Positions 692 to 12,520 of a DNA stretch of 43,992 nt are shown here, piece after piece. The stretch is from positions 1-43,992 of the forward strand of contig CAMWBA010000006.1 in NCBI GenBank assembly GCA_947172355.1. Direction: 5' to 3'. The notes below the pieces were generated by a model that did no database searches, had not been told where the DNA came from, and saw only the letters and a program-made list of their open reading frames with translations. Source of the DNA: an uncultured Bacillota bacterium. GTDB taxonomy: Bacteria > Bacillota > Clostridia > Oscillospirales > Oscillospiraceae. The position numbers and the translations under genes were made by a program. The stretch's first letter is position 1. Every line of letters starts with the position of its first letter.

Positions 692-1504
692 CTATGAAAC
701 CAGCCAATCCAATTCCAACTCCAACGCTGCCAGTGAAATATCCGGTTTCACCTTCTCCCCATGGAAGTCGCTGCCGCCGGTTATATGGAGTCCGTACTTT
801 TCTGCAAGGCGGAGGTAGAAATCTTGCTGCTGTGCCGTATACTTCGGGTAATAACACTCTATGGCATCCAAGCCATAGCCGGCCAGTTCTCTGACAATGC
901 CCTCCAGTGCTCCGTCGTCCACGCCAATCTGATAGGGGTGGGCCAAAGACACCTTGCCGCCGGCGGCTTTGAGGGTCTCCACACACACCCGTGCGGGAGG
1001 TTTCGGCCGTTCCACCCGGCGGTGAAACTCCTCGGTGTCTAAATAGCGGTCAAACGCCGCCCGGTTGTTGGGCACAAACCCGTGGCGGACCAGTACCTGG
1101 GCAAAGTGGGGCCGACCCACGATGCTCCCGCCCGCCAGTTCCTCCACTTCGGACAGGGCGATCTCCACCCCCTGTTCCTTTAAAAAGCGGACCATCCGCA
1201 GGCTCCGCTCGTCCCGTCCCCGTCTCATCTCCTGACACAGTCCAGCCAGCGCCGGAGCTTCTGGGTCAATTCCATATCCAAGGATGTGAAAGGTAGGGTA
1301 CTCCTTTGCACTCAGCTCCATTCCTCGGATCACCCGCAGTTTCAGTGCCTCCCCCGCCTGCGCCGCCTCGGCCAGTCCCTCTGTCGTGTCGTGGTCGGTA
1401 AGGGCCAGGACCTCCAGGCCCCGGCTCTTTGCTAAGCGCACCAGTTCTGACGGCGTGTACTGGCCATCGGAGGCGGTGCTATGGGTATGCAGGTCCGCTT
1501 TCAT
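692..1504 (-). CDS. PHP-domain phosphoesterase
   Basis: A 270-residue PHP (polymerase and histidinol phosphatase) protein of the small stand-alone type related to nucleoside bisphosphate phosphatases. Visible metal-ligand motifs are DLHTHST at the N-terminus, LTDHD, the GRPHFA segment, LAHPYQ and GSDFHGE near the C-terminus, so the trinuclear metal site looks complete. The ATG at 1504 overlaps the stop of the phosphonopyruvate decarboxylase gene by four bases (ATGA), which fixes the start and makes this the last gene of the phosphonate operon. Its role there is unknown. One possibility is clearing the 3',5'-bisphosphate by-product of PAPS-dependent sulfation, since an APS-kinase-like gene is in the same operon; that is inference. 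Confidence 0.85.
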   Translation of the reverse strand: MKADLHTHSTASDGQYTPSELVRLAKSRGLEVLALTDHDTTEGLAEAAQAGEALKLRVIRGMELSAKEYPTFHILGYGIDPEAPALAGLCQEMRRGRDERSLRMVRFLKEQGVEIALSEVEELAGGSIVGRPHFAQVLVRHGFVPNNRAAFDRYLDTEEFHRRVERPKPPARVCVETLKAAGGKVSLAHPYQIGVDDGALEGIVRELAGYGLDAIECYYPKYTAQQQDFYLRLAEKYGLHITGGSDFHGEKVKPDISLAALELELDWLVS

Positions 1505-2637
1505 CGCTGGCGCCCTCCCCATTCCTTCAGATAATTCATAAAGGACTGTTTATTTTCCTTTGTGGAGGTGGTTGGTCGGCCCAGGTCTGCGCGGGCGCCC
1601 AGCGCACATTTCACATCAATCAGACACGGGCCGCTCCCTTCCCGGGCCCGTTCCAATTCCAGCGTCAGCTCCTCCGCCATCTCCACCGACACCGCCCTGG
1701 GATAGCCGCAGGCTCTGGCCACAGCGGGCAGGTCAACCGTCCCCGTCACAGTCGGCATCCCGCCCACCGTCTCATGGGCGCCGTTGTTGATGACAATATG
1801 GATCAGATTGTCCGCTCCGCTGGCCCCAATCACCGCCAGAGCCCCCATGTGCATCAGCGCCGCACCGTCGCCGTCGATACACCAGACCTTGCCCCCTGGC
1901 CGGTTCAGCGCAATGCCCAAGGCGATGGAGGAGGCGTGCCCCATTGATCCCACCGTCAAGAAGTCATACTGGTGGCTCTGACCATTCTGCTCCCGGATCT
2001 CAAACAGCTCCCGGCTGGCCTTTCCGGTGGTGGACACAATGGGGTCCGTCCCGGCGGCACAGGCGATGTGCCGGATGGCCTCCTCCCGGCGCAGGGTGCA
2101 GCGGTTGTGATACGAAACCTTCTTTTCCCAGGTCAGAGCCTCCTTCCGCACCACAAAGGCCACACTCTTCCCCTTTGCCAGCAGGGGACGAAACTCCGCC
2201 ATCGCCGCGGCGGCCTCGGACCCCGCCGTTTCTTTTCCGATGACAAAGGGCCGGATCTCCAGGTCCTCCAGCAGTTTGACGGTAATCTCCCCTTGGAATC
2301 TGTGCTGGGGCTCGTCGTGGATGCCCGGTTCTCCCCGCCAGCCGACCAGAAACACCATTGGGATTCCATACACCCGTTCATCCAGCAGAGAAGCCACCGG
2401 GTTGACTATGTTGCCCTCCCCGCTGTTCTGCATATAGACCACCGGGATTTTCCCGGTGGCCAAGTGATACCCCGCCGCCAGCGCCACCGCGTTTCCTTCG
2501 TTGGCCGCAATGATATGGCGGTGCGGGTCGATTCCATATGTGTCCATCAGGTAATCACACAGTGCCCGGAGCTGAGAGTCTGGGACGCCGGTAAAAAACT
2601 CCGCACCGATGGTCTCCAACAGCATTTCAACCTTCAA
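1501..2637 (-). CDS. aepY: Phosphonopyruvate decarboxylase (thiamine diphosphate dependent)
   Basis: Decarboxylates 3-phosphonopyruvate to phosphonoacetaldehyde, the irreversible step that pulls the unfavourable PEP mutase reaction forward. The 378-residue protein has the family's N-terminal FFTGVPDS motif (14-21), the catalytic glutamate in AANEGNA (Glu47), and the ThDP/Mg motif GDG...NN (256-258 and 284-285). The start is a TTG at 2637 preceded by a good GGGGAG Shine-Dalgarno at normal spacing; an ATG four codons in is an alternative. Three bases separate it from the upstream dehydrogenase stop and it overlaps the PHP gene, so it is cotranscribed with both. Confidence 0.93.
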   Translation of the reverse strand: MKVEMLLETIGAEFFTGVPDSQLRALCDYLMDTYGIDPHRHIIAANEGNAVALAAGYHLATGKIPVVYMQNSGEGNIVNPVASLLDERVYGIPMVFLVGWRGEPGIHDEPQHRFQGEITVKLLEDLEIRPFVIGKETAGSEAAAAMAEFRPLLAKGKSVAFVVRKEALTWEKKVSYHNRCTLRREEAIRHIACAAGTDPIVSTTGKASRELFEIREQNGQSHQYDFLTVGSMGHASSIALGIALNRPGGKVWCIDGDGAALMHMGALAVIGASGADNLIHIVINNGAHETVGGMPTVTGTVDLPAVARACGYPRAVSVEMAEELTLELERAREGSGPCLIDVKCALGARADLGRPTTSTKENKQSFMNYLKEWGGRQR

Positions 2638-2640
2638 CGG

Positions 2641-3690
2641 TTATCTCCCCTTTAGAATTTCCTGATACAGCGTTTGAATCTCCCGTTCCGTCAGGGAGAT
2701 CGGAAAATTATTCAGCCGAGCCGGATTTACCGAGGCGGTTAATCCCGCCAATTCCTGCTCGGTGCAGGCAGGGACCTCCAGTTCCATCCGGGTGAGGATA
2801 TTCTGAAATCGTTCGGCGCCCTCTCTGGAACTGCCGCAGCCCATTGCGTCCGCGATTGCTTCCAGTGTTTGCCTCAACCCACTCTCTGTGGAAGCGGCGG
2901 CATGGTCCAGCACATAGGGCCACAGCCTAGCCACACACAGGGCAGCGGCATGGCCATGGGCCAGGCCATACAATTTGGTAATCTGATAGCACATGGCGTG
3001 GCCCGCCGTTGTCTGCGCAAGGTTGATGGCCTTGCCCGCCAAGTGCGCTCCCTTCATCATCCCGGCATTTCCCTCCGGGGTATTTTGCAGATAACCTGCA
3101 TAGCTGTCCATAATCCGGCGAATCGCCTGGCCGGAATACTCCCGGCTTTCGGCTGTGGCCTTTTTGGACCAGAAGGACTCCACCCCATGGCACAGGGCGT
3201 CCAGCATGGTCGCCTTGCGCTGATAGTCCGGGAGGGTATCCAGAGCTGACGGGTCCATCAGGACCGCCTCCGGCAGTCCGCAGTCCACCGACTCCTTCAC
3301 GCCCTGCCGGTATACCACAGCAAAATGGGTGGCCTCGCTGCCGCTTCCAGCGGTTGTAGGGATAGCCAGCAGCGGCACATGGCTGCCGGCGGTGTACCGG
3401 ATGCACTTGGCAGTGTCAATCGCGCTCCCCCCGCCCACTGCGGCAATGAGCCCGCACCCGGAGGCTTGAAAGAGGGCCGTGCCGCTTTGAACCTCCTCCC
3501 AGCTGGGATTCGGGGAAAAGCCGCAGAAGGAACGCAGCAGAATTCTCCCTTGCCCCTCCAATTCTTTCAAGTGGGCCCCCACCGTAAGGCGGCGGAACGA
3601 GCCGCTGCACACCAAAAAAATCTGCTGGTACTGCGCCAGATATTGGTCCAGCTCCCGAAAGTTGTTGTCCGGGGACAAAAGGGTCTGCAT
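2641..3690 (-). CDS. Iron-type alcohol dehydrogenase, probable phosphonoacetaldehyde reductase
   Basis: Family III (iron-activated) alcohol dehydrogenase, 349 residues. The NAD(P)-binding GGGSAIDTAK (86-95) and the metal ligands Asp164, His168, His231 and His245 are present, so it should be active. Placed directly between PEP mutase and phosphonopyruvate decarboxylase, it most likely reduces phosphonoacetaldehyde to 2-hydroxyethylphosphonate; PhpC-type enzymes do this in phosphonate antibiotic and phosphonolipid pathways. No aminotransferase of the 2-aminoethylphosphonate branch is seen, which supports hydroxyethylphosphonate as product. The start at 3690 was chosen because GGAGGAGG lies just upstream and it falls two bases after the pepM stop. 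Substrate is inferred from context. Confidence 0.87.
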   Translation of the reverse strand: MQTLLSPDNNFRELDQYLAQYQQIFLVCSGSFRRLTVGAHLKELEGQGRILLRSFCGFSPNPSWEEVQSGTALFQASGCGLIAAVGGGSAIDTAKCIRYTAGSHVPLLAIPTTAGSGSEATHFAVVYRQGVKESVDCGLPEAVLMDPSALDTLPDYQRKATMLDALCHGVESFWSKKATAESREYSGQAIRRIMDSYAGYLQNTPEGNAGMMKGAHLAGKAINLAQTTAGHAMCYQITKLYGLAHGHAAALCVARLWPYVLDHAAASTESGLRQTLEAIADAMGCGSSREGAERFQNILTRMELEVPACTEQELAGLTASVNPARLNNFPISLTEREIQTLYQEILKGR

Positions 3691-3692
3691 GA

Positions 3693-5702
3693 TTATGCCT
3701 CCTCCGGAATCAGCGTAATAATATCCTTGATGGACATACACTGATCGTCGCACTCTTTGGCTCGGTGGTGTTCCAAGATGGTCCTTGCCGCATTCTGCAT
3801 CGCCGGGAATCCGGTGCGGGTCAGTTGGTTGGCATAGATGACCACATTTACCCCCCGCGCCTTGAACTCCTCCTCTGTCACACTGTTAAAGGAGGTGGGC
3901 ACCACCACCAGCGGTGTGGTCCGGTCCTCTGCCCGAAAGCGCTGAATAAACTCAAAAATCTCGGCGGGGTCTTTTTTCCGGCTGTGGATCATAATGGCGT
4001 CCGCTCCAGCCTTCACAAAGGCGAAGGCCCGCTCTAAGGCGTCCTCCATCCCCCGTTCCAAAATCAGGCTTTCAATCCGAGCGCAGATCATAAAGTCTTT
4101 TGTTTTCTGCGCCCGTTTCCCCGCCGCAATCTTGGCGGAAAAATTCTCAATGGTATCCTGGGTCTGCTCCACCTCGTTGCCAAACAGGGAGTTCTTTTTC
4201 AGCCCCGCCTTGTCCTCAATGATGACCATAGACACCCCCATCCGCTCCAGAGACCGGACGGTATAGACAAAATGCTCTGTCAGTCCGCCGGTGTCTCCGT
4301 CGAAGATAATCGGCTTGGTGGTCACTTCCATGATATCATCAATGGTGCGAAAGCGGGAGGTCATATCGACCAGTTCAATATCCGGCTTGCCCTTGGCGGT
4401 GGAGTCGCACAGGGAACTGACCCACATCGCGTCAAACTGCCGGGCGCCGCCGTCCTGATAGACCACCGTATTTTCCACAATCAATCCGGTAATCCCGCTG
4501 TGGGCCTCCATGGCGCAGACCAGTCCCTTCATGGCGATGGCCCGGCGCAGCCGGGCCCGGCGGACATCGGGCAGGGACAACTCCGCCCGTGCCCGGGTCT
4601 CCAGGACCTGATACTTCTCATCCCGCGCATAGGGGAACTCCACCAGCCGCCCTCCATAGCCGGCCAAGACAGACACCACCTCGTCCCGGATGGGTTTTTG
4701 CACGCCGGAGGTCCAGTCATCCCCGTGGACCACAAAATCCGGCCGGAGGGCCTCCAGGTTTTCCCGATAGCTGAGCGTTCTCTGCTCCACCACCCGGGAT
4801 ACGCCGGCTATGCTCTCCAGCATGGCTTTCCGCTCCGGATAGGGGAGCAGGGGAAAGCGCTTGTAGCTGGCTACCGCCTCATCTGAGAGGACCCCGACAA
4901 TCAGCCGGCCCAACCGCCTGGCCTTTTTGAGAATGGCAATATGTCCGCTGTGGAGGATGTCGGCGGCAAAGCACATATAGACCGTCCGGGCCTCCACCGC
5001 CAGCAGGCGGGCGGACACCAGCGACAAATCCTCCGGGTTGTCCACCTCGCTGCACAGCATATCCTCCACATCCAGGGGAAGAATTTGGCAGGCTCCGTCC
5101 AGCACATTCAATGCCTTTTCCGCATAGCAGCACCGCTCTCCCCGCTGGCAGAACTTCTCGATTTCATCCAGCCAACGCCGCCAATCCTCCCGCCGCAGAA
5201 GGTACAGGGGCTGGGCCGCGGCAGCGTCCTGAACAAATTCTACTCCAACTTTGACCACTTGTCCATTCCGAATTACCGCCTTAAAGTCTTTTTCCGGCAG
5301 CGGCTGAGTGGTGCTTACCGCCATACAGCTGCCCTCGCAGGCCAGCATGGCGTCCAGCACGGCGTTTTCAAATACCAAATCCCCATGCAGCAGCAGGATA
5401 TCCTCATCCAGATGCTCCCGGGCCAAATAGATGGAGTAGATGTAGTTGGTCTGCGCATAGTCGGGATTATGGACAAAGGTAACTTCCAAGGGCAGGTCCA
5501 AGCTGCGGCAGTAGTCTGCCAACGCCTCCTCGAAAGGGCCGGTGGTAATCACCGCCTGGGTCACGCCGGCCTCCGACAGCATCCGCAGCTGGCGGGAGAG
5601 AATGGTCTCCCGGCTGGAGATTTCCGTCATACACTTGGGATGCTGGGAGGACAGCACCCCCATCCGGCTGCCCGTTCCCGAGTTCAAAATCAGGGCCTTC
5701 AC
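3693..5702 (-). CDS. pepM: Three-domain nucleotidyltransferase / cytidylyltransferase / phosphoenolpyruvate mutase
   Basis: A 669-residue fusion. Residues 1-235 are a MobA/LicC-like NTP transferase (LNSGTGSRM at 6-14). Residues 240-375 are a TagD-like cytidylyltransferase with the HxGH motif as HSGH (251-254). Residues 385-660 are PEP mutase, with IIFDGDTGG (465-473) and the diagnostic EDKAGLKKNS (496-505) that distinguishes mutase from isocitrate-lyase-type lyases. The mutase forms the C-P bond of phosphonopyruvate; the other domains probably activate a phosphonate as a CMP derivative for transfer to a surface polymer. A cytidylyltransferase-mutase pair is common in bacteria making phosphonate glycans, but a third N-terminal transferase is less usual. 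Starts with GTG, overlapping the kinase stop (GTGA). Confidence 0.92.
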   Translation of the reverse strand: MKALILNSGTGSRMGVLSSQHPKCMTEISSRETILSRQLRMLSEAGVTQAVITTGPFEEALADYCRSLDLPLEVTFVHNPDYAQTNYIYSIYLAREHLDEDILLLHGDLVFENAVLDAMLACEGSCMAVSTTQPLPEKDFKAVIRNGQVVKVGVEFVQDAAAAQPLYLLRREDWRRWLDEIEKFCQRGERCCYAEKALNVLDGACQILPLDVEDMLCSEVDNPEDLSLVSARLLAVEARTVYMCFAADILHSGHIAILKKARRLGRLIVGVLSDEAVASYKRFPLLPYPERKAMLESIAGVSRVVEQRTLSYRENLEALRPDFVVHGDDWTSGVQKPIRDEVVSVLAGYGGRLVEFPYARDEKYQVLETRARAELSLPDVRRARLRRAIAMKGLVCAMEAHSGITGLIVENTVVYQDGGARQFDAMWVSSLCDSTAKGKPDIELVDMTSRFRTIDDIMEVTTKPIIFDGDTGGLTEHFVYTVRSLERMGVSMVIIEDKAGLKKNSLFGNEVEQTQDTIENFSAKIAAGKRAQKTKDFMICARIESLILERGMEDALERAFAFVKAGADAIMIHSRKKDPAEIFEFIQRFRAEDRTTPLVVVPTSFNSVTEEEFKARGVNVVIYANQLTRTGFPAMQNAARTILEHHRAKECDDQCMSIKDIITLIPEEA

Positions 5703-6196
5703 AGCAGCTCTCCCTCCAATCGCTCCACGATGGCCTCCGGAGTCTCCCCGCCGTCGTTTTCCACCACCACATCCGGATGCTGGGGCTCGTCAAAGGGGAG
5801 GTCCACTCCTACCACGTTGGTCCCGACGGTATAAAGACCCTTCTGATTGCGCTGGAGCAGCGTTTCCCGCCGGACTTTAATATAAATTTCCCGATACTGG
5901 TCAATATGTTCCCGGCTCCAGGCCCGCACCGCGGAGTACATGCAGATGCTGCATACCACCACGTCAATGCCCTGATCGGCCAGCATCTTGGCCACCCGGA
6001 AGGTGCGCTGCGCTCCTTTCACCCGGTCCTCGTCGCCATAGCCGATGTCCTCATTGTAAACCGGGCGGATCAGGTCGCCGTCCAGCAGGACCACATTGGG
6101 TTTTTTTGCTTTCAGCCGCCGGTGGAACAATCCGCCCAGCGTTGTTTTCCCTGCGCCGGACAGGCCGGTGAAAAAATACACGGTTCCTTTTTCCAT
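5699..6196 (-). CDS. Adenylylsulfate-kinase-like protein
   Basis: A 165-residue P-loop kinase of the APS kinase family, with Walker A GLSGAGKTT (11-19) and LDGDLIR (38-44) in the place of the family's LDGDNVR. If it is a true APS kinase it makes PAPS for the sulfotransferase-like product of the upstream gene. No ATP sulfurylase is in the window, and the Asn-to-Leu change in the LDGD motif leaves open that it phosphorylates another small substrate of the pathway. It overlaps the start of the pepM fusion and sits 10 bases after the upstream stop, so it is in the same operon. The start at 6196 follows an AGGAG-type site. Confidence 0.82.
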   Translation of the reverse strand: MEKGTVYFFTGLSGAGKTTLGGLFHRRLKAKKPNVVLLDGDLIRPVYNEDIGYGDEDRVKGAQRTFRVAKMLADQGIDVVVCSICMYSAVRAWSREHIDQYREIYIKVRRETLLQRNQKGLYTVGTNVVGVDLPFDEPQHPDVVVENDGGETPEAIVERLEGELL

Positions 6197-6206
6197 AAAC
6201 TTCTCC

Positions 6207-8219
6207 TTAGTGATACAGCGGCTGTTCCAGCAGCGCCGGGTCCAGCTCCAGCTTGGGCATCATGTGCAGAGGCTGGCCATGGCGGTTGACAAAGTTCAGC
6301 CCTTGCAGCAGAATTTTGGCGTGCTCCAGACGTTCCTTGGAAAATTTTTCAATATTCGCTTCCAGCAGTTTTTCCTGGACGGTCCGCTCTGTCTCCGCGT
6401 CCACACGCTTGCCGTTTTGCGACACCTCTGCTTCCATATAGATATTTCTCCAGGTCTCCCGGATATAGTGATTCATCCGCTCAAATCCTCCGATAAGCTC
6501 CTTGGCCCTGGTCTCATCCATCGGCGCTCCGTCGTAGTATTGGAAGCCGTAGCCATAGAACTCATACGCATCCCGGAGGAAGAATTCGATGAAATACCGC
6601 TCATCATCGTTAATATACTCGTCATAGGTGCGGTAGATGGCAGCGGGGTCAAATCCCCGGACATTTCCCTCATAGCTCTCGGCGTCCTGCTTGCCCCACA
6701 GCGAACAATAGGTCATACTCTCGGTGTAGGGCAAGTCCAGGAAGGCGGCCAAGGCGGTAAAGGTCGCTTTTGGATTCAGCTTGCCGTCCTCAAAGCGGAC
6801 GAGGCGGCTGTCTTTATAGAGCCGGTCCTGCCAGTCGATCATAAAGCTGCGGTTCAGAACACGTTCTGAGATTGCGTCGCTGACCACCGATTTTTTCTCT
6901 TCCTTCTTCTCCACCGACTCCAGCGCGGACTGATACATAAACTTCACCGTAGCGCCGTGGCTGGTGGTAGGCCGGCGCATCGGGGTAAAGGTTTTGATGT
7001 ATTGGAAGGCCCGGAACAGGGGGGACTTGCACACCTGCTCATACTGTTTGGAGTACAGGGCAGCGAAGCTGTTTTTGGTGCCCAGGCTGTACACAATATT
7101 GTGAAAGTGGGGCTGGAAGAAGAGGGCCGGCGCGATGCGGGAGGCCGGGTCCAGTGAAGCGGCGCCCCGCTTATCGCTGAAATAGATCGCCACCAGCAGG
7201 TCCTTATCGGTGAGGTCCTTCATGTGGTAGAGCTCCTCCACAATTCTGTGGGAGCAATTCGCCCCCAGATTCTGGAACGCGTCCGACAGGGTTTGGGACG
7301 CCTCCAGGCTGGCGCGTATTTTTTCAAGCTGGTCGGTGATATTGTCGAACCTCAGGGAGGGCATGACCAGCAGGTTGGGGTGGGAGTCGAACACCTCATT
7401 AAAGAAGTCGCCGCCGTTGTGGGTAGACAGCTGGGTGTGCCAAATCAGGCGGTTCACCTCCCGAATGCCCAGGGGTTTTATGGGGAACTGACTGTAGTCA
7501 ATTCCGAAGCGCGCAGAAAAGTCGATTGGGTACTGGCTGAGCTCGTCGCCGATCAAGAATACAATTTTCTCCGTCTCCAAAATTCGGCGCAGGTTGATGC
7601 ACTGGAGGTGAGCACAGAAGGTCCCCCAGTCGGAATAATGGAGGTAGATATGGTTTTCCCGGCCCACAAACTCGCTGTCCCGCACGTTGTCGCACAGGTA
7701 CTCCAATTCATACTGGGAGTACACGTCGCTGGCCAGGATCGGCTTGTCCAAGTCTTTAAAAAAGTTCCGGCTGACAACGGGATGTTTAAAGTTCACATAG
7801 TCGCCGAAGCGGTCCTGGGCGGGGTCATAGGGGATAAAGCCATAATCGTCGTAGGGATAGAATCGGATCGGCAGCTGTTCAAAGGGCAAAAAATCCTTGC
7901 GGAACAGGTAAGGGTACTTGGCCAGCAGCTTACAGTTGCGCTCATAGCGGCCGCTGAGCAATTTGATGTTTGGCTCATAAAACACGGCGGTCATCAGGGG
8001 CAGCAGGTCCTCCCGGTGATAGCCCTGGTTGTAGAGGTTCCGGAAGCAGGTATACGAAATCTTATAGTCGCCGCCGTTCCGGAGGATATACACCGCCGCT
8101 TCCATATCCTGGTCCAAATCCTGGCCCTGATTTTGTTGGATGGCGATGTGATACGCCTGGCAGGCGTCCTCCTGTTCCCCCAATTCGGCCATACGCCGTG
8201 CAAGTTCAATGGTGGTCAT
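6207..8219 (-). CDS. Large cytoplasmic protein with C-terminal sulfotransferase-like region
   Basis: 670 residues, no signal peptide or membrane segment. The first 100 residues are helical and repeat-like. The C-terminal third contains RFEDGKLNPKATFTALAAFL followed by LPYTESM, very close to the conserved C-terminal region of Sulfotransfer_3-type enzymes, where the equivalent is RYEDL..P...L..L..FLGLP. A classical PAPS loop is not obvious; candidates are the segments with STHNGG and RRPTTSHGA. The pairing with an APS-kinase-like gene supports a sulfotransferase, but a role in transferring the phosphonate is also possible. The start at 8219 was chosen for its AAAGGAAG site; an ATG nine codons upstream and a longer open frame reaching the hag scar exist but lack good signals. 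Confidence 0.7.
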   Translation of the reverse strand: MTTIELARRMAELGEQEDACQAYHIAIQQNQGQDLDQDMEAAVYILRNGGDYKISYTCFRNLYNQGYHREDLLPLMTAVFYEPNIKLLSGRYERNCKLLAKYPYLFRKDFLPFEQLPIRFYPYDDYGFIPYDPAQDRFGDYVNFKHPVVSRNFFKDLDKPILASDVYSQYELEYLCDNVRDSEFVGRENHIYLHYSDWGTFCAHLQCINLRRILETEKIVFLIGDELSQYPIDFSARFGIDYSQFPIKPLGIREVNRLIWHTQLSTHNGGDFFNEVFDSHPNLLVMPSLRFDNITDQLEKIRASLEASQTLSDAFQNLGANCSHRIVEELYHMKDLTDKDLLVAIYFSDKRGAASLDPASRIAPALFFQPHFHNIVYSLGTKNSFAALYSKQYEQVCKSPLFRAFQYIKTFTPMRRPTTSHGATVKFMYQSALESVEKKEEKKSVVSDAISERVLNRSFMIDWQDRLYKDSRLVRFEDGKLNPKATFTALAAFLDLPYTESMTYCSLWGKQDAESYEGNVRGFDPAAIYRTYDEYINDDERYFIEFFLRDAYEFYGYGFQYYDGAPMDETRAKELIGGFERMNHYIRETWRNIYMEAEVSQNGKRVDAETERTVQEKLLEANIEKFSKERLEHAKILLQGLNFVNRHGQPLHMMPKLELDPALLEQPLYH

Positions 8220-8237
8220 AGCGCTCTTCCTTTCATA

Positions 8238-8281
8238 CCATTTCATTCTGAAACGGGCCCTTCCATTTAAAAATGAAATGG
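8238..8281 (-). promoter_or_regulatory. Perfect 10-bp inverted repeat in the phosphonate operon leader
   Basis: CCATTTCATT at 8238-8247 is repeated as its exact complement at 8272-8281 with a 24-base spacer. It ends about 18 bases before the first operon start codon, so it could be an operator or a leader hairpin overlapping the ribosome-loading zone. No matching sigma-A or sigma-D promoter is obvious between it and the hairpin at 8297. Confidence 0.5.
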
Positions 8282-8296
8282 CACGATGCTTCAAGG

Positions 8297-8328
8297 AAAC
8301 AGGGCCGGGCACAAGCCCGGCCCTGTTT
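8297..8328. terminator. Strong GC hairpin downstream of the flagellin region
   Basis: 14-bp perfect stem (8297-8310 with 8315-8328) and a four-base loop. On the minus strand, the direction of hag, the stem is followed by CCTTGA rather than a T tract, so termination may be partial and the phosphonate operon may receive read-through from hag. Confidence 0.6.
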
Positions 8329-8355
8329 CTTTGGGTATATGCTGGAACTGCGAAG

Positions 8356-8388
8356 CTGCGGATTAACCCAGCAGCTGGAGCACGCCCT
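8356..8388 (-). pseudogene. Remnant of a flagellin 3' end (33-bp scar)
   Basis: 32 of 33 bases match 8536-8568, the last codons, stop and 3' flank of hag. Read on the minus strand it encodes GVLQLLG and a TAA stop, with no flagellin sequence before it. The two copies lie 180 bp apart in direct orientation, and only the distal one is followed by the terminator-like hairpin. Confidence 0.8.
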
Positions 8389-8535
8389 TCGTCGACACAA
8401 GCTCCGTATCCTTCGCTTCCGGCTTCCGCCGAACGCTCACTCACTGCGCTGTGTCTCCTCTCCAAACCGGACCCGCTTCGCTGGGCTCCGGTTTGGCAGC
8501 GGCCTGCGGCCGCTTTAGGCTGCCCCGCAATTAAT
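8389..8535. repeat. GC-rich multi-hairpin filler between the two flagellin ends
   Basis: 147 bp flanked by the 33-bp direct repeat. It contains a 10-bp inverted repeat CCAAACCGGA/TCCGGTTTGG (about 8462-8496) and a smaller one, AGCGGCC/GGCCGCT (about 8499-8515), plus shorter GCTTCGC-type hairpins. No coding frame is convincing. It could be a short insertion element or what is left of an intergenic spacer between two flagellin genes. Confidence 0.45.
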
Positions 8536-8542
8536 CTGCGGA

Positions 8543-10564
8543 TTAGCCCAGCAGCTGGAGCACGCCCTGAGGCACCTGGTTGGCCTGGGCCAGCATGGCC
8601 TGGGCGGACTGGACCAGGATGTTGTTCTTGACGTAGCTCATCATCTCTTCGGCCACATCGGTGTCGCGGATGGTGGACTCGGCGTCCTGGATGTTCTCCG
8701 CCATCACGGACAGGTTGTTGCCGGTGTGCTCCAGACGGTTCTGGATAGCGCCCAGGTCGCCCCGGATGCCGGACACATAGTTGATCGCGCCCTTGATGAC
8801 GTCGATCGCGGCCTGCGCACCGGACTGGGTGCCGATGTCCACGTCATCGATGCTCTTGCCATCCTCAACAGTGCCGTTGCTGCCAATGATGCCCATAGCG
8901 CCCACGTGGATGTCGCCAATGTCAACCTTCATCTGGTTGAAGTCGTCGGAAGTGTCGCCAATCTGGAGGGTCAGAGGATCGCCCTTGAAGTTGGAAGCCG
9001 CAGCGGCCGCCTCCTCCTTGGAGATGTCCAGGGTGGTGCCAGCCTTCTTGATCTTGAACACCTGGGCCAAGTCTTCCTTGGTCGTGTAGATGTTGGCGGT
9101 TTTGTTGTCGTTGCGCTGGATACGGATGCTGTGGCCGTCGCTGCCCACGCCGACCTCGAAGGTAGCTCCGGTAGCACTGCCCAGCGTGTGGTTGACGTTG
9201 GTGCCGATACCCTTCACGATCTTGGACAGGATGTCGTGCATCTGGGCGTCGGACAGGCTGCCAGCCTCATAGGCGGTCAGATCAATCACAGCAGCGGTGC
9301 TGCCCTGAGTAGCCTTGCCGTTGGCGCCCACTTTCAGCGTGACGGACTTGGTGCCCACTGTGATAACAGTGCCGTCAGTGATGTCAGAGGCATAGATGTC
9401 GAAGGTGGTGTTGGCCCGGTTGCCGTCAACCGGTGCAACACCCACGGTCTGGGGCTGGGTACCGGCCTGGACCGCGCCAGTCATGGTAACAGTACCATCG
9501 TTGGCAGTGGTATCAGAAGCAAAACTGGTCTTGACATTGAAGTCCACACGGGCGGTGGAGGCGGAGGTGGGCTTATCCTTCATCGTGAAGGTCAGCACGC
9601 CGCCAGCGGCGCTCATGGTCCAGTCAACACCATTGAGGGTGACCGTGGCATTGGCCGCACCAGCCGCACCAGCCGCACCATTCACCAAGTCCTTAGCCAC
9701 ATTTGTCGCGGTAACAAAACCGGCGGTAGCGGTAGAAGTACCGTTGCTGCTGACCACATATGCGGTGTTCGTAGAAATTGTCTTGCTGCCGTTAATCTGA
9801 AGTTTGAGCGCCTTAGAGCCGCTGCCAATGGTAAGGGTAAAGCCAGCCGCACCAACGGAAGTGCCCGAACCAGTGGAGGCCATGGTACTATTGTCCAAAT
9901 TCCACTTCAAGGTGTTCAGGTCGATGGTGAAAGAACCCTTTACAGCGCTGGCGCTGGTGGTATCATAGATGTTCTTGCTGCCGGCCACTTCATGAGCCTT
10001 GTCGCTGGCGGCGATGTCAGCGGTGGGCATACGGTTCAGACCGTTCTCGGTCTTGGCCTGGGCGGCTGCGCTGGCCTTGGCCTGAGCGGCCTCCAGAGCG
10101 GCGGCAGCCTCAGCCTGAGCGGCGACCTTGCCCTTGCTGCTCAAAGAGCCGTCCAGCAGCTTGATGCCGTTGAAGTTGGCGGAGTCAGCAATACGGTTAA
10201 TTTCGGTCTTCAGGGCGGCGACCTCTTTCTGGAGGTTGGCGCGGTCGACCTCGTTGTCATAGGTGCCGTTGGCAGACTGGGTAGCCAGATAGTCCATGCG
10301 GTTGAGCATGTCCTGAACTTCCTGCATGGCGCCCTCAGCGGTCTTCACCAGGGAGATGCCGTCCTTAACGTTTTTCTGGGCGGCTTCCAGGCCAGTGATC
10401 TGAGCGCGCATCTTCTCGGAAATAGCCAGACCAGCGGCGTCGTCACCGGCGCGGTTGATCTTGTAGCCGGAGGAGAGCTTCTCCAGGTTGCCGGACAGGG
10501 CCTTGGTGTTGTTGTTGTAGTTGCGGTAGGCGTTCATAGCCATTATATTGTGCTGAATACGCAT
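8543..10564 (-). CDS. hag: Flagellin with a large variable domain
   Basis: The 673-residue filament subunit begins MRIQHNIMAMNAYRN and has the conserved N-terminal D0/D1 helices (LSSGYKINRAGDDAAGLAISEKM), then an Ala/Thr/Ser/Gly-rich central domain of roughly residues 175-545, and the C-terminal D1/D0 helices ending in the canonical QGVLQLLG. Minimal clostridial flagellins are about 270-400 residues, so the surface domain is long; its Ser/Thr richness gives many potential O-modification sites. Start at 10564 is fixed by AAGGAGG eight bases upstream. The leader carries structured elements and a CsrA-type site, and csrA lies immediately upstream on the same strand. The downstream scar suggests past recombination at the 3' end. 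Confidence 0.97.
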   Translation of the reverse strand: MRIQHNIMAMNAYRNYNNNTKALSGNLEKLSSGYKINRAGDDAAGLAISEKMRAQITGLEAAQKNVKDGISLVKTAEGAMQEVQDMLNRMDYLATQSANGTYDNEVDRANLQKEVAALKTEINRIADSANFNGIKLLDGSLSSKGKVAAQAEAAAALEAAQAKASAAAQAKTENGLNRMPTADIAASDKAHEVAGSKNIYDTTSASAVKGSFTIDLNTLKWNLDNSTMASTGSGTSVGAAGFTLTIGSGSKALKLQINGSKTISTNTAYVVSSNGTSTATAGFVTATNVAKDLVNGAAGAAGAANATVTLNGVDWTMSAAGGVLTFTMKDKPTSASTARVDFNVKTSFASDTTANDGTVTMTGAVQAGTQPQTVGVAPVDGNRANTTFDIYASDITDGTVITVGTKSVTLKVGANGKATQGSTAAVIDLTAYEAGSLSDAQMHDILSKIVKGIGTNVNHTLGSATGATFEVGVGSDGHSIRIQRNDNKTANIYTTKEDLAQVFKIKKAGTTLDISKEEAAAAASNFKGDPLTLQIGDTSDDFNQMKVDIGDIHVGAMGIIGSNGTVEDGKSIDDVDIGTQSGAQAAIDVIKGAINYVSGIRGDLGAIQNRLEHTGNNLSVMAENIQDAESTIRDTDVAEEMMSYVKNNILVQSAQAMLAQANQVPQGVLQLLG

Positions 10565-10572
10565 TACTTTTG

Positions 10573-10615
10573 CCTCCTTAGCAAAATTTTCGTGTGTTTG
10601 AACATTCCTTTGTTC
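10573..10615 (-). promoter_or_regulatory. Likely CsrA binding region in the hag leader
   Basis: On the minus strand the 16 bases at 10600-10615 fold as GAACA-AAGGAA-TGTTC, which displays GGA in a hairpin loop and resembles the CsrA consensus ACARGGAUGU. The second GGA is the Shine-Dalgarno AAGGAGG at 10573-10579. Two sites, one overlapping the ribosome site, is the arrangement known for Bacillus subtilis hag. Function is inferred from sequence and from adjacency to csrA. Confidence 0.65.
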
Positions 10616-10728: not shown

Positions 10729-10917
10729 TCAGGTGTCGTACACGCAGCCGGGGCGTTCGCCGCCCTCCCGTTCCAACACCTTGCCCCGGAGGATGGGGAT
10801 CTCTCTAGGGGCGCTGATGGTCATGTGCGCCCGTTCCGCCGTAAGGCGGTCCAGTTGAATAACCACATGGTCGCCGATGGTGAGGTATTCGCCTTTTCGC
10901 ATGGTGATGCAGAGCAT
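10729..10917 (-). CDS. csrA: Carbon storage regulator CsrA
   Basis: RNA-binding dimer that blocks ribosome access at GGA motifs; in Gram-positive bacteria it represses flagellin translation and is antagonised by FliW. The 62-residue protein MLCITMRKGEYLTIGDHVVI... matches the family pattern MLVLTRKxGExIxIGD, and APREIPILR matches the RNA-binding APRxVxVxR segment. Residues 1-5 are slightly unusual (LCITM for LVLTR). The start at 10917 has AGGGAG at proper spacing; a longer frame upstream has no support. It lies between the TnpB-family gene and hag, all on the minus strand. No fliW is in the window. Likely target: the hag leader 120 bases downstream. Confidence 0.93.
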   Translation of the reverse strand: MLCITMRKGEYLTIGDHVVIQLDRLTAERAHMTISAPREIPILRGKVLEREGGERPGCVYDT

Positions 10918-10964
10918 AAAAATCTCCCTAACCGCTCCTGGCCCTTCATCCTGCGGGCCGCGTT

Positions 10965-11160
10965 TCATCGTCATAATATTTTGGATACCCTTTCGGGCTT
11001 TGGGCGTGCGCACACGCCCTCTCGTTTCCCGCCCTCCAGCCTGGAAAACGCTGAGCAAAGCGGAAGCGGTTCATTCCGCTTCGCTCAACGCTCCCCCGGC
11101 CGGACCGCGGGCCTTCCCCGGCATCCCGACCGGATAGGCGGCCAGCCGCCTTAAACTTGT
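10965..11160 (-). ncRNA. Candidate guide RNA (omega-RNA-like scaffold plus guide) downstream of the RuvC-dead TnpB
   Basis: TnpB and TldR guide RNAs are encoded at and just after the 3' end of the gene. Here the 244 bases between the stop (11162) and csrA hold four hairpins on the minus strand: 11136-11151 (6 bp), 11047-11092 (17 bp with a 12-base loop), 11002-11019 (7 bp) and 10987-10999 (AGCCC-GAAA-GGGT). Three positions of the long stem pair as G-U only in minus-strand RNA and would be A-C mismatches on the plus strand, which indicates the transcribed strand. Bases just after the last hairpin, from about 10986 downward, would be the guide. Exact ends and the target are not known. Confidence 0.5.
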
Positions 11161-11161
11161 G

Positions 11162-12328
11162 CTAGGCGCTTTGCCCTGCAAATTGTGCAAGGCCGCAGCG
11201 CTTGATGTTCACCGCGGCGTTGACCTCCCGGTCGTGGCTTGTGCCGCATCGGGGGCAGCGCCAGCTCCGCCGCGGATAGGGGATCTCCGGCTGCACCTGG
11301 CCGCACGCGGAGCAGGTCCGTGTGGTGGGGGTGTAGCGGTCCACCAGAATCAGGGCTTTTCCCTGCCGTTCCAGCTTATACCGCAGCAGCTCCCGAAACA
11401 TTCTGTAGCCGGACTCCCGGACAGCGCTGGGGTCCTGGGTAAGCATTTTCGCCATCTCGTCCAGTGCGTCGGCCCGCAGGCACACGGCGTCCCAGGCGTT
11501 GGCTATCCGCCGGGATTCCTTGTGGAGAAAGTCGCGCCGCTGGTTGGCGATGTGCTCATGGATCAGGCGGTATTTTTGTACCGCTTCTGCGTAGTTTTGG
11601 GACCCGGGTTCCATCCGGGCCAATCGTTGCTGGAGCTTTGCCAGCTTCGCCTGGGACTGTTTCAGCCACCGGGGTGGGTCGGCCAAATGGCCGGAGTCGT
11701 CCACATAGAAGTGGGCCAGGGAGTATTTCAGCCCCACGGTGGTCTCCGCCCTGGGGGTGACTGCCTCCGGCTGCTTCACTGCGGCCTCATACAGAATGGA
11801 GCAGAAGTACTTTCCCGTGCGTGTTTTGCTGACGGTAATCCGTTTCAGCTTCCACCACCCCTGAGGCCGCCGTGGAAATTTGGCCTTGACAATCCCCGCC
11901 TTGGTCATGCGGATTCCGTCCGATGTGGTGTAGATGGTGGGGCCGGAGGCAAACTCGTGGTTGCAGGCGGTAAAGGAATCCCGGTCGTCCTTTTTGCGCT
12001 TAAAGTTGGGATACCCGAAGGACTCCGGGTGTTTAAAAAACGCCCGAAACGCCCGAGACAACTGGTTGTGCTCTTGAATCAGGGCCTGATTGTCCACCTC
12101 GGCCAGAAAGGGCGAACTTGTTTTGTACTTGGCCGGAGTTGGGATAAAGTGGGCCCCGGTCTCCTCATAGAACCGCTGTTGGTCGGCAAGCATTCGGTTC
12201 CAGAGGTAGCGGCAGCAGCCGAAGGTCTTTTCAAACAGCTCCGCCTGCTCCGGTGTGGGGTAGAGGCGGGCTTTGATGGTGTTGTACTGGATCATCTGCC
12301 CCTCTGCGGCACTTGCTTTCCGCGCCAT
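11162..12328 (-). CDS. RuvC-dead TnpB-family protein (TldR-like RNA-guided DNA-binding protein)
   Basis: Full-length TnpB/OrfB of the clostridial type, 388 residues from the ATG at 12328 (ATG at 12295, the usual family N-terminus MIQYNTIKARLYPTPEQ, is an alternative). The N-terminal region and zinc ribbon (Cys339, Cys342, Cys358, Cys361) are intact. All three RuvC catalytic positions are changed. The first Asp of the family motif GLDYS is Lys201 (GLKYS). The VED glutamate is lost (LRAD, 284-287). The last DRDxNAA aspartate is Glu368 (DREVNAA). An intact frame with a lost nuclease is the signature of TldR repressors, some of which neighbour flagellin genes. No tnpA is present. It should bind DNA by guide RNA and repress rather than cut. 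Confidence 0.88.
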   Translation of the reverse strand: MARKASAAEGQMIQYNTIKARLYPTPEQAELFEKTFGCCRYLWNRMLADQQRFYEETGAHFIPTPAKYKTSSPFLAEVDNQALIQEHNQLSRAFRAFFKHPESFGYPNFKRKKDDRDSFTACNHEFASGPTIYTTSDGIRMTKAGIVKAKFPRRPQGWWKLKRITVSKTRTGKYFCSILYEAAVKQPEAVTPRAETTVGLKYSLAHFYVDDSGHLADPPRWLKQSQAKLAKLQQRLARMEPGSQNYAEAVQKYRLIHEHIANQRRDFLHKESRRIANAWDAVCLRADALDEMAKMLTQDPSAVRESGYRMFRELLRYKLERQGKALILVDRYTPTTRTCSACGQVQPEIPYPRRSWRCPRCGTSHDREVNAAVNIKRCGLAQFAGQSA

Positions 12329-12352: not shown

Positions 12353-12384
12353 GCCCGGTCAAGTTGTATACAACCTGACCGCGC
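12353..12384. repeat. Palindrome copy 1, next to the TnpB-family start
   Basis: 32-base near-perfect palindrome centred on TTGTATACAA, 30/32 identical to the copy at 12479-12510. It lies 25 bases before the ATG at 12328, in the 5' leader, where it could act as operator or as an RNA hairpin controlling expression. Confidence 0.75.
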
Positions 12385-12428: not shown

Positions 12429-12455
12429 TAAAGTATTGAAAAAGTCTGCCGATAT
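12429..12455 (+). promoter_or_regulatory. Consensus sigma-D (sigma-28) flagellar promoter
   Basis: TAAA at 12429-12432, exactly 15 bases, then GCCGATAT at 12448-12455: a full match to the Gram-positive flagellar sigma consensus TAAA-N15-GCCGATAT. It points right, away from the flagellin cassette, with a start expected near 12463, just before the palindrome at 12479-12510. No plus-strand gene follows. An overlapping sigma-A-like TATACT lies at 12458-12463. Confidence 0.8.
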
Positions 12456-12462
12456 GTTATAC

Positions 12463-12520
12463 TGAGCAAACAAAAAAAGCGCGGTCAGGTTGTATACAAC
12501 CTGACCGCGCTTTTCCCTCT
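12463..12520 (+). ncRNA. Candidate short sigma-D-dependent RNA
   Basis: A transcript from the sigma-D promoter would run through about 15 unpaired bases, then the perfect 32-base palindrome (a 14-bp stem with a TATA loop) and a U-rich tail from 12511, giving an RNA of roughly 50-60 bases. Its hairpin is nearly identical to the one in the leader of the TnpB-family gene. Whether it exists, or is only an attenuated start, cannot be told from sequence. Confidence 0.4.
12471..12514. terminator. Palindrome copy 2 acting as a bidirectional terminator
   Basis: A perfect 32-base palindrome at 12479-12510 is flanked by seven A's on the left (T's on the minus strand) and TTTT on the right. On the minus strand it would end the sigma/anti-sigma operon that stops at 12677. 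On the plus strand it would end the sigma-D transcript. Confidence 0.7.

Follow-up and report, generated by a model that had tools for sequence, protein, structure and literature searches.

A predicted nuclease-dead TnpB homologue with guide RNA, csrA and flagellin in an uncultured Oscillospiraceae genome: a putative phase-variable flagellin switch

Results

The window, by which we mean the whole stretch of DNA analysed here (43,992 nt; positions 1 to 43,992 of contig CAMWBA010000006.1, assembly GCA_947172355.1, from an uncultured gut bacterium of the Oscillospiraceae), carries on its minus strand, in this order, a putative invertible promoter segment, tldR, a guide RNA, csrA and a flagellin gene. 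The tldR gene (11162..12328, minus strand; stop codon 11162-11164, coding 11165-12328) encodes a TnpB homologue of 388 aa classed as nuclease-dead, with the Pfam domains HTH_OrfB_IS605, OrfB_IS605 and Cas12f1-like_TNB each above cut-off; in NCBIfam, guided_TnpB scored 238.6 bits (cut-off 100) and the narrower IS200_TnpB model 267.7 (cut-off 425). The zinc ribbon is intact (CSACG...CPRCG), and the original prediction of an intact TnpB-family frame with its zinc ribbon kept is borne out by a real minus-strand frame with three Pfam domains and both CxxC pairs. Alignment with the active ISDra2 TnpB (PDB 8H1J) and relatives assigns the RuvC positions to K201 (GLKYS), R285 (CLRAD) and E368 (HDREVNAA). 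A phmmer alignment puts RuvC-I two residues off; we decided the register because the relatives L010 and L022 have GLDYS (L, G and C numbers are our handles for loci, genomes and contigs). Lys, Arg and Glu occupy in the alignment the places of Asp, Glu and Asp in ISDra2 TnpB, whose triad numbering we take to be D191/E278/D361. The Asp-Glu-Asp triad of active IS200/IS605 TnpB is thus absent from the window protein (K/R/E), as had been claimed for all three RuvC positions. TnpB was the best match in both sequence and fold; it was the first fold match of an AlphaFold model of modest quality (mean pLDDT 66.9, pTM 0.52, 12 sequences), in which fold and domain order are as in ISDra2 TnpB (PDB 8H1J, 8EXA), the triad being intact in the latter but replaced in the window TldR. 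No tnpA was found among the six proteins scanned around tldR, in agreement with the earlier claim, and the gene's own genome (G000; fragmented assembly, 77% complete) holds a single copy of tldR rather than many near-identical mobile ones.

The active-site replacement is not an isolated error, because close orthologues carry replacements of the same type. Among the 27 close orthologues with all three RuvC positions readable (window included), the first position is Lys in 26 and Asn in one, the second Arg in 27/27 and the third Glu in 27/27; a restored Asp-Glu-Asp triad was absent from every orthologue examined. The outgroup TnpBs have Asp and Glu at the first two positions in 8/8 cases and Asp at the third in 7/8. 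Both zinc-ribbon CxxC pairs are present in 26 of the 27 orthologues (exception: L042), and most orthologues have a long open frame (65-78% identity). Broken copies, where readable, show Asn (L206) or Ser/Thr/Gly (L209) at RuvC positions. One point against a fully dead site is an acidic residue two places past the lost RuvC-II Glu, found in all 27 orthologues (25 Asp, 2 Glu). In the tree, for which L206 and L042 were left out and the truncated L209 was included, 27 dead proteins lie together to one side of a branch supported at 99/99, among them those of F. plautii ATCC 29863 and Oscillibacter sp. 1-3; the outgroup branches are long. As a separate observation, genome G017 contains two copies (L010, L019) of a TnpB that is 47% identical to the window TldR, retains the first Asp and the Glu and carries Asn in place of the third catalytic residue; the two G017 copies of L010 gave no usable transposon ends for reading a target-adjacent motif.

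Downstream of tldR lie csrA (10729..10917, minus strand; 62 aa, PF02599, E 2e-12) and the adjacent flagellin gene hag (8543..10564, minus strand; Flagellin_N and Flagellin_C). The csrA-hag neighbourhood proved to be conserved: the order tldR, guide, csrA, flagellin recurs in 25 of the 26 loci with tldR and downstream sequence (24 loci plus L204 and L208). L033 has the flagellin without csrA, and in L181 csrA reads in two frames. The broken tldR copies L205, L206 and L209 are still found beside csrA and flagellin, L180 stops at a contig edge, and L041 and L177 are fragments with neither neighbour. Upstream of tldR in the window, where no hin stands, are genes for an RsgI-like anti-sigma factor and an ECF sigma factor. 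No phage genes were recognized among the 13 window proteins scanned, and the peptide patterns used retrieved no relatives from viral contigs; four viral-contig stretches that matched a pattern were discarded, as none encoded a relative.

Directly 3' of tldR, covariation delineates a guide-RNA scaffold of five helices (10981..11137, minus strand). Of 26 loci scanned, 25 yielded a located scaffold (not L002) and 22 were aligned; L179, L035 and L042 were excluded because they have large insertions or lack a helix. RNAalifold predicted 44 pairs for the 22 aligned loci, 27 of them with compensatory changes; pairing was possible in 95.6% of cells versus 85.5% in shuffles and 37-47% with partners slid, and 0/500 shuffles reached this level. 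The window scaffold's own fold has a z-score of -5.9. Its long central stem (~11095-11044) may, by analogy, correspond to the RNase III-cleaved stem that the main text of PMC13418256 describes for an Oscillibacter homologue. Between 8500 and 13000, no Rfam family exceeded its gathering score; we put five weak matches down to chance, the one with the lowest E-value being CsrC (23.8 bits versus a cut-off of 61), which overlaps the palindrome. Some scaffolds deviate in size. Insertions of ~100 nt interrupt scaffold loops in L179 (4960-5236) and L035 (1241-1544), leaving the stems intact, and similar insertions precede the scaffold in L003, L008, L018 and L032; judged by eye, they have similar purine-rich and GCGACGACG-like ends and look like a small repeated element. 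In L042 (824-933) the long central helix is missing from the scaffold, the remainder and the guide being kept.

The scaffold is followed by a conserved guide, AATATTATGACGATG (10966..10980, minus strand), the first base of which is uncertain by 1-3 nt. It resembles flagellin codons 6-10 (N-I-M-A-M), and a second flagellin of the same genome, on contig C24 (G000:C24), reads AATATTATGGCAATG at this place: the first 9 nt of the guide match codons 6-8 (core 9/9), with 13/15 identities overall and mismatches at positions 10 and 12, beyond the core. Allowing up to 2 mismatches, the 15-mer finds 6 places in its own genome, the guide itself included, versus 3 for the reversed control, and a 9-nt match alone is not unique in a 3-Mb genome. 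Guide position 10 is A in 24 of the 25 located scaffolds versus G in flagellins; L208 is the only one with G. Position 12 changes along with the target in part of the genomes, with A in both guide and target of G025 and G096 and T in both for G021, while guides with G there face targets carrying G, T or A. At the second locus of G062 (L208), the guide is identical to the non-adjacent flagellin of that genome over the 15 nt compared. Five of the 18 genomes with a non-adjacent flagellin (G061, G062, G063, G066 and G078) have at least one guide without a perfect 9-nt match there: in G062 (first locus), G063, G066 and G078 the guide core is imperfectly matched by the recovered non-adjacent flagellin, and in G061 the guide (L037) has its match in the flagellin of a sister locus. 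The guide-core comparison (13/13 genomes) covers only genomes with the core AATATTATG, those same five lying outside it. The match to the C24 flagellin lends computational support to the earlier claim that another flagellin is silenced. The original prediction had also placed the block at a promoter, and here it has to be revised, the predicted target lying inside the flagellin coding region (codons 6-10). A guide-like match in G081 (L172) was dismissed as chance, as neither tldR nor scaffold accompanies it. In G078:C100 (L169), a guide end stands beside a flagellin with the full 9-nt site; we treated it as a decayed locus, which has lost tldR, csrA and the greater part of the scaffold, and counted its flagellin as non-adjacent. 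In L206 and L209 a guide-like sequence is shifted upstream (TCAGCATAATAT...), as if another target-adjacent motif were used.

The flagellin next to tldR deviates from the guide. Its codons 6-10, AATATAATGGCTATG (10535..10549, minus strand), differ from the guide of the same locus at seed position 6 as well as at positions 10 and 12. Across genomes, the core AATATTATG stands at codons 6-8 in 18 of the 21 counted non-adjacent flagellins versus 1 of 29 adjacent ones (Fisher p 1.3e-9); control flagellins from genus genomes without a detected guide have it in 10/19 cases (p 1.2e-4 versus adjacent, p 0.04 versus non-adjacent flagellins). A mismatch to the own guide within the first six positions, the seed, was seen in all 27 adjacent flagellins compared, at position 6 in 26/27 and at position 3 in 18/27. 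Both are third codon positions, and the encoded amino acids remain Asn and Ile. Codon 7 differs synonymously between the adjacent and non-adjacent flagellins of a genome in 24 of 26 pairs, the highest value of 129 codons; codons 6, 9 and 2 do so in 17/26 pairs each, the mean of the 125 others being 0.17.

These counts depend on the following choices. The 21 non-adjacent flagellins all begin in the MRIQHN manner; excluded were two divergent flagellin-like proteins of G028 (L072, L077), partial matches without a start (for example L100, L107, L111 and L074) and weak hook-protein-like matches. In G078, G079, G090 and G096 flagellins were searched by pattern only, and G010, G064, G067, G068 and G079 gave no non-adjacent flagellin. 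Two of the 29 adjacent flagellins, L110 and L096, stand beside broken, divergent tldR copies with differing guides and were kept out of the guide comparison and the codon count; L088, one of the 27 compared, adjoins an interrupted tldR. The 19 control flagellins are a hand count of pattern-caught ones from genus genomes without a guide match, part of these genomes having been searched by pattern only; the G081 match was counted as chance, and G010, which has tldR, was left out.

Upstream of tldR, two inverted repeats border a putative invertible segment of ~120 bp: a left repeat (12353..12384, plus strand; core GTCAAGTTGTATACAACCTGAC, 12358-12379) and a right repeat (12479..12510, minus strand; palindromic core GTCAGGTTGTATACAACCTGAC, 12484-12505), which are 94% complementary with 94 bp between them. 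Inside lies a FliA (sigma-28) type promoter, TAAA-N15-GCCGATAT (12429..12455, plus strand), a perfect match to the FliA consensus that points away from tldR in the assembled sequence (OFF). The promoter segment is an addition to the earlier reading of this DNA, which had not reported one. The repeat has no further sites in its own genome at up to 3 mismatches. Strict FliA-type matches upstream of tldR were found in 7/24 loci, six pointing away and one (L033) towards the gene. L032 and L033 are related by an exact 114-bp inversion between repeats of the same type, with 100% identity after reversal and identical flanks on both sides over the compared stretch; this shows directly that the segment has flipped in relatives, though not in the window itself. 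The two loci, which share the first 300 nt of tldR and the surroundings of the promoter segment without a difference, encode proteins that clearly differ in the tree, and L033 is without csrA; they may perhaps be a mosaic that arose by recombination. A hin-like gene was found upstream in 15/24 loci (some with little upstream sequence). The window has no hin, and a Hin-like recombinase is encoded on G000:C213, 87.6% identical to that of L032, and might act in trans. Upstream of the C24 flagellin we found no FliA promoter with up to 1 mismatch; such a promoter was found at 6/20 non-adjacent flagellins.

Two predicted hairpins mark candidate CsrA sites in the window: one with AGGAUG in its loop (10940..10959, minus strand) lies in the csrA leader, between guide and csrA, and the other (10568..10586, minus strand) has a loop that contains the adjacent flagellin's Shine-Dalgarno AAGGA. 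The leader of the C24 flagellin reads GATGC-AAGGAT-GCATC and contains the CAAGGAUG motif, which the main text of PMC13418256 describes as a CsrA motif in a flagellin leader. GGA-loop hairpins were found in the leaders of 17/28 adjacent and 16/20 non-adjacent flagellins, with ~2 each expected from single-base shuffles, a weak control. The csrA leaders following the guide have at least one such hairpin in 19/25 cases, by a looser search and as a prediction without shuffle control; that csrA might regulate itself is a guess.

Discussion

In our view, the locus belongs to the csrA-associated TldRs and acts as a phase-variable flagellin switch, a reading to which we assign a probability of about 0.85. 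The sequence comparisons support the original prediction of a TldR-type nuclease-dead TnpB in a clostridial genome, as csrA and a flagellin are linked to the gene and the guide matches another flagellin. Expression of the window tldR is probably gated by the invertible FliA promoter upstream. Flipping of the ~120-bp segment would turn this promoter to face tldR, giving rise to one transcript from which TldR, guide RNA, CsrA and the alternative flagellin would be produced. TldR and guide would then bind the start of the C24 flagellin coding region and block its transcription, a step we propose because of the guide match and of the published experiments on relatives, and CsrA could hold down the remaining mRNA via the GGA hairpin in its leader, while the adjacent flagellin would be spared by synonymous mismatches in the 6-nt guide seed. 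Since the promoter faces away in the assembled state, we read the module as OFF, with the C24 flagellin being made.

Systems of this kind, the csrA-associated TldRs of Oscillibacter and Flavonifractor, have been described together with RIP-seq and ChIP-seq experiments and hin invertons (PMC13418256, Nat Microbiol 2026), and as far as that main text goes they are close to the window locus. Shared features are the nuclease-dead TnpB, the guide RNA 3' of the gene, the linked csrA and flagellin, a target in the flagellin coding region (the published target sites of this clade lie within flagellin reading frames) and CAAGGAUG in the flagellin leader. The published loci combine hin with ~120-bp inversions of a FliA promoter; the window has a similar segment but no adjacent hin, and a hin with FliA-promoter inverton is reported there for most, not all, csrA-TldR loci. 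The prophage flagellin TldRs of enterobacteria, as outlined in the same source, likewise consist of a dead TnpB with a linked flagellin and silence another flagellin, but reside in prophages with a guide to the fliC promoter region, whereas the site predicted for the window lies in a coding region. The kind of system has thus already been published in 2026, where earlier notice is credited to Wiegand 2024 and Altae-Tran 2023 (PMC13418256), and the window adds the locus of another genome. Among the papers listed by our literature search there was no second one on the csrA-TldR clade. The flagellin-associated TldR of enterobacterial prophages was reportedly the subject of Wiegand 2024. What is gained is an extension of the csrA-TldR flagellin switch to another Oscillospiraceae genome, whose sequence makes the switch testable by showing guide, target, escape substitutions and promoter state.

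In the Hin/fljB-fljA phase variation of Salmonella, FljA is the repressor. There, an invertible promoter controls both the alternative flagellin and a protein that represses the other one, and the window appears to be organized alike, with an RNA-guided protein and, as proposed here, CsrA in place of FljA; the Hin switch of Salmonella is also mentioned in the main text of PMC13418256. We consider it fairly likely that the adjacent flagellin is immune to its own module, selection having kept synonymous seed mismatches at guide positions 3 and 6, and that the module is an RNA-guided counterpart of the Hin-FljA switch. The recoding itself is a pattern in the sequences, from which we infer the protective effect; in Enterobacter TldR, the seed comprises 6 nt, 6-nt guides are sufficient and natural mismatches are tolerated (main text of PMC13418256). 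As evidence of selection, the pattern is strong but not final, because synonymous divergence is raised at codons 2-5 and 11 too (as well as at codon 9), the genomes are related and so do not count as independent, and part of the non-adjacent copies may come from tldR loci that were not assembled; a general 5'-end effect may explain part of the codon signal. A search of the main text of PMC13418256, with supplements and Table S3 outside its scope, did not find the seed-recoding rule. If the rule is true, the choice of the flagellin to be silenced depends on a few synonymous codons, targets become predictable in uncultured gut bacteria, and a simple experiment is possible. If the switch works as proposed, one promoter flip turns flagellin B on and flagellin A off by base pairing and CsrA.

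Other readings of the locus have to be weighed against these data. The protein might be an IS200/IS605 TnpB that remains active with a rearranged catalytic site, a notion to which the guided_TnpB score above the NCBIfam cut-off and two acids near the site in 27/27 orthologues (the one past the RuvC-II Glu and the third-position Glu) lend some colour; we nevertheless hold it to be very improbable in view of Lys/Asn at the first and Arg at the second position in 27/27 orthologues, where outgroup TnpBs have Asp at the first in 8/8, and of the single copy, the lack of tnpA among the scanned neighbours and the conserved csrA-flagellin neighbourhood. Marginally more credible, though still only a slim chance, is a decaying transposon remnant that stands beside flagellar genes by chance and is without present function. 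Decayed relatives do exist: besides L169, which retains the guide end only, there are the fragments L041 and L177, the interrupted L205 and the broken copies L206 and L209; csrA of L181 reads in two frames. Against a remnant stand the long frame that is open in most orthologues (65-78% identity), the same substitutions throughout, the compensatory changes in the scaffold, and a guide kept beside flagellins with a recoded seed.

The assignment of AATATTATGACGATG as a guide can be questioned as well: the sequence might instead be a csrA leader element or part of a flagellin-type leader, in favour of which are its near invariance and the mismatch between its position 10 and the flagellins of nearly all genomes. 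We give this explanation slightly more room than the two preceding ones but likewise regard it as quite unlikely: AATATTATGACGATG stands behind the scaffold, at the expected start of a TnpB guide, it changes along with the target in G025, G096, G021 and the second locus of G062, and L033 keeps it without csrA. Downstream of the adjacent flagellin, a phosphonate cluster occupies 692-8465 of the window on the minus strand. It comprises genes for a phosphonopyruvate decarboxylase, an iron alcohol dehydrogenase most similar to the phosphonate type, a nucleotidyltransferase/PEP-mutase fusion, an adenylylsulfate-kinase-like protein and a 752-aa protein without family match, and possibly serves filament decoration.
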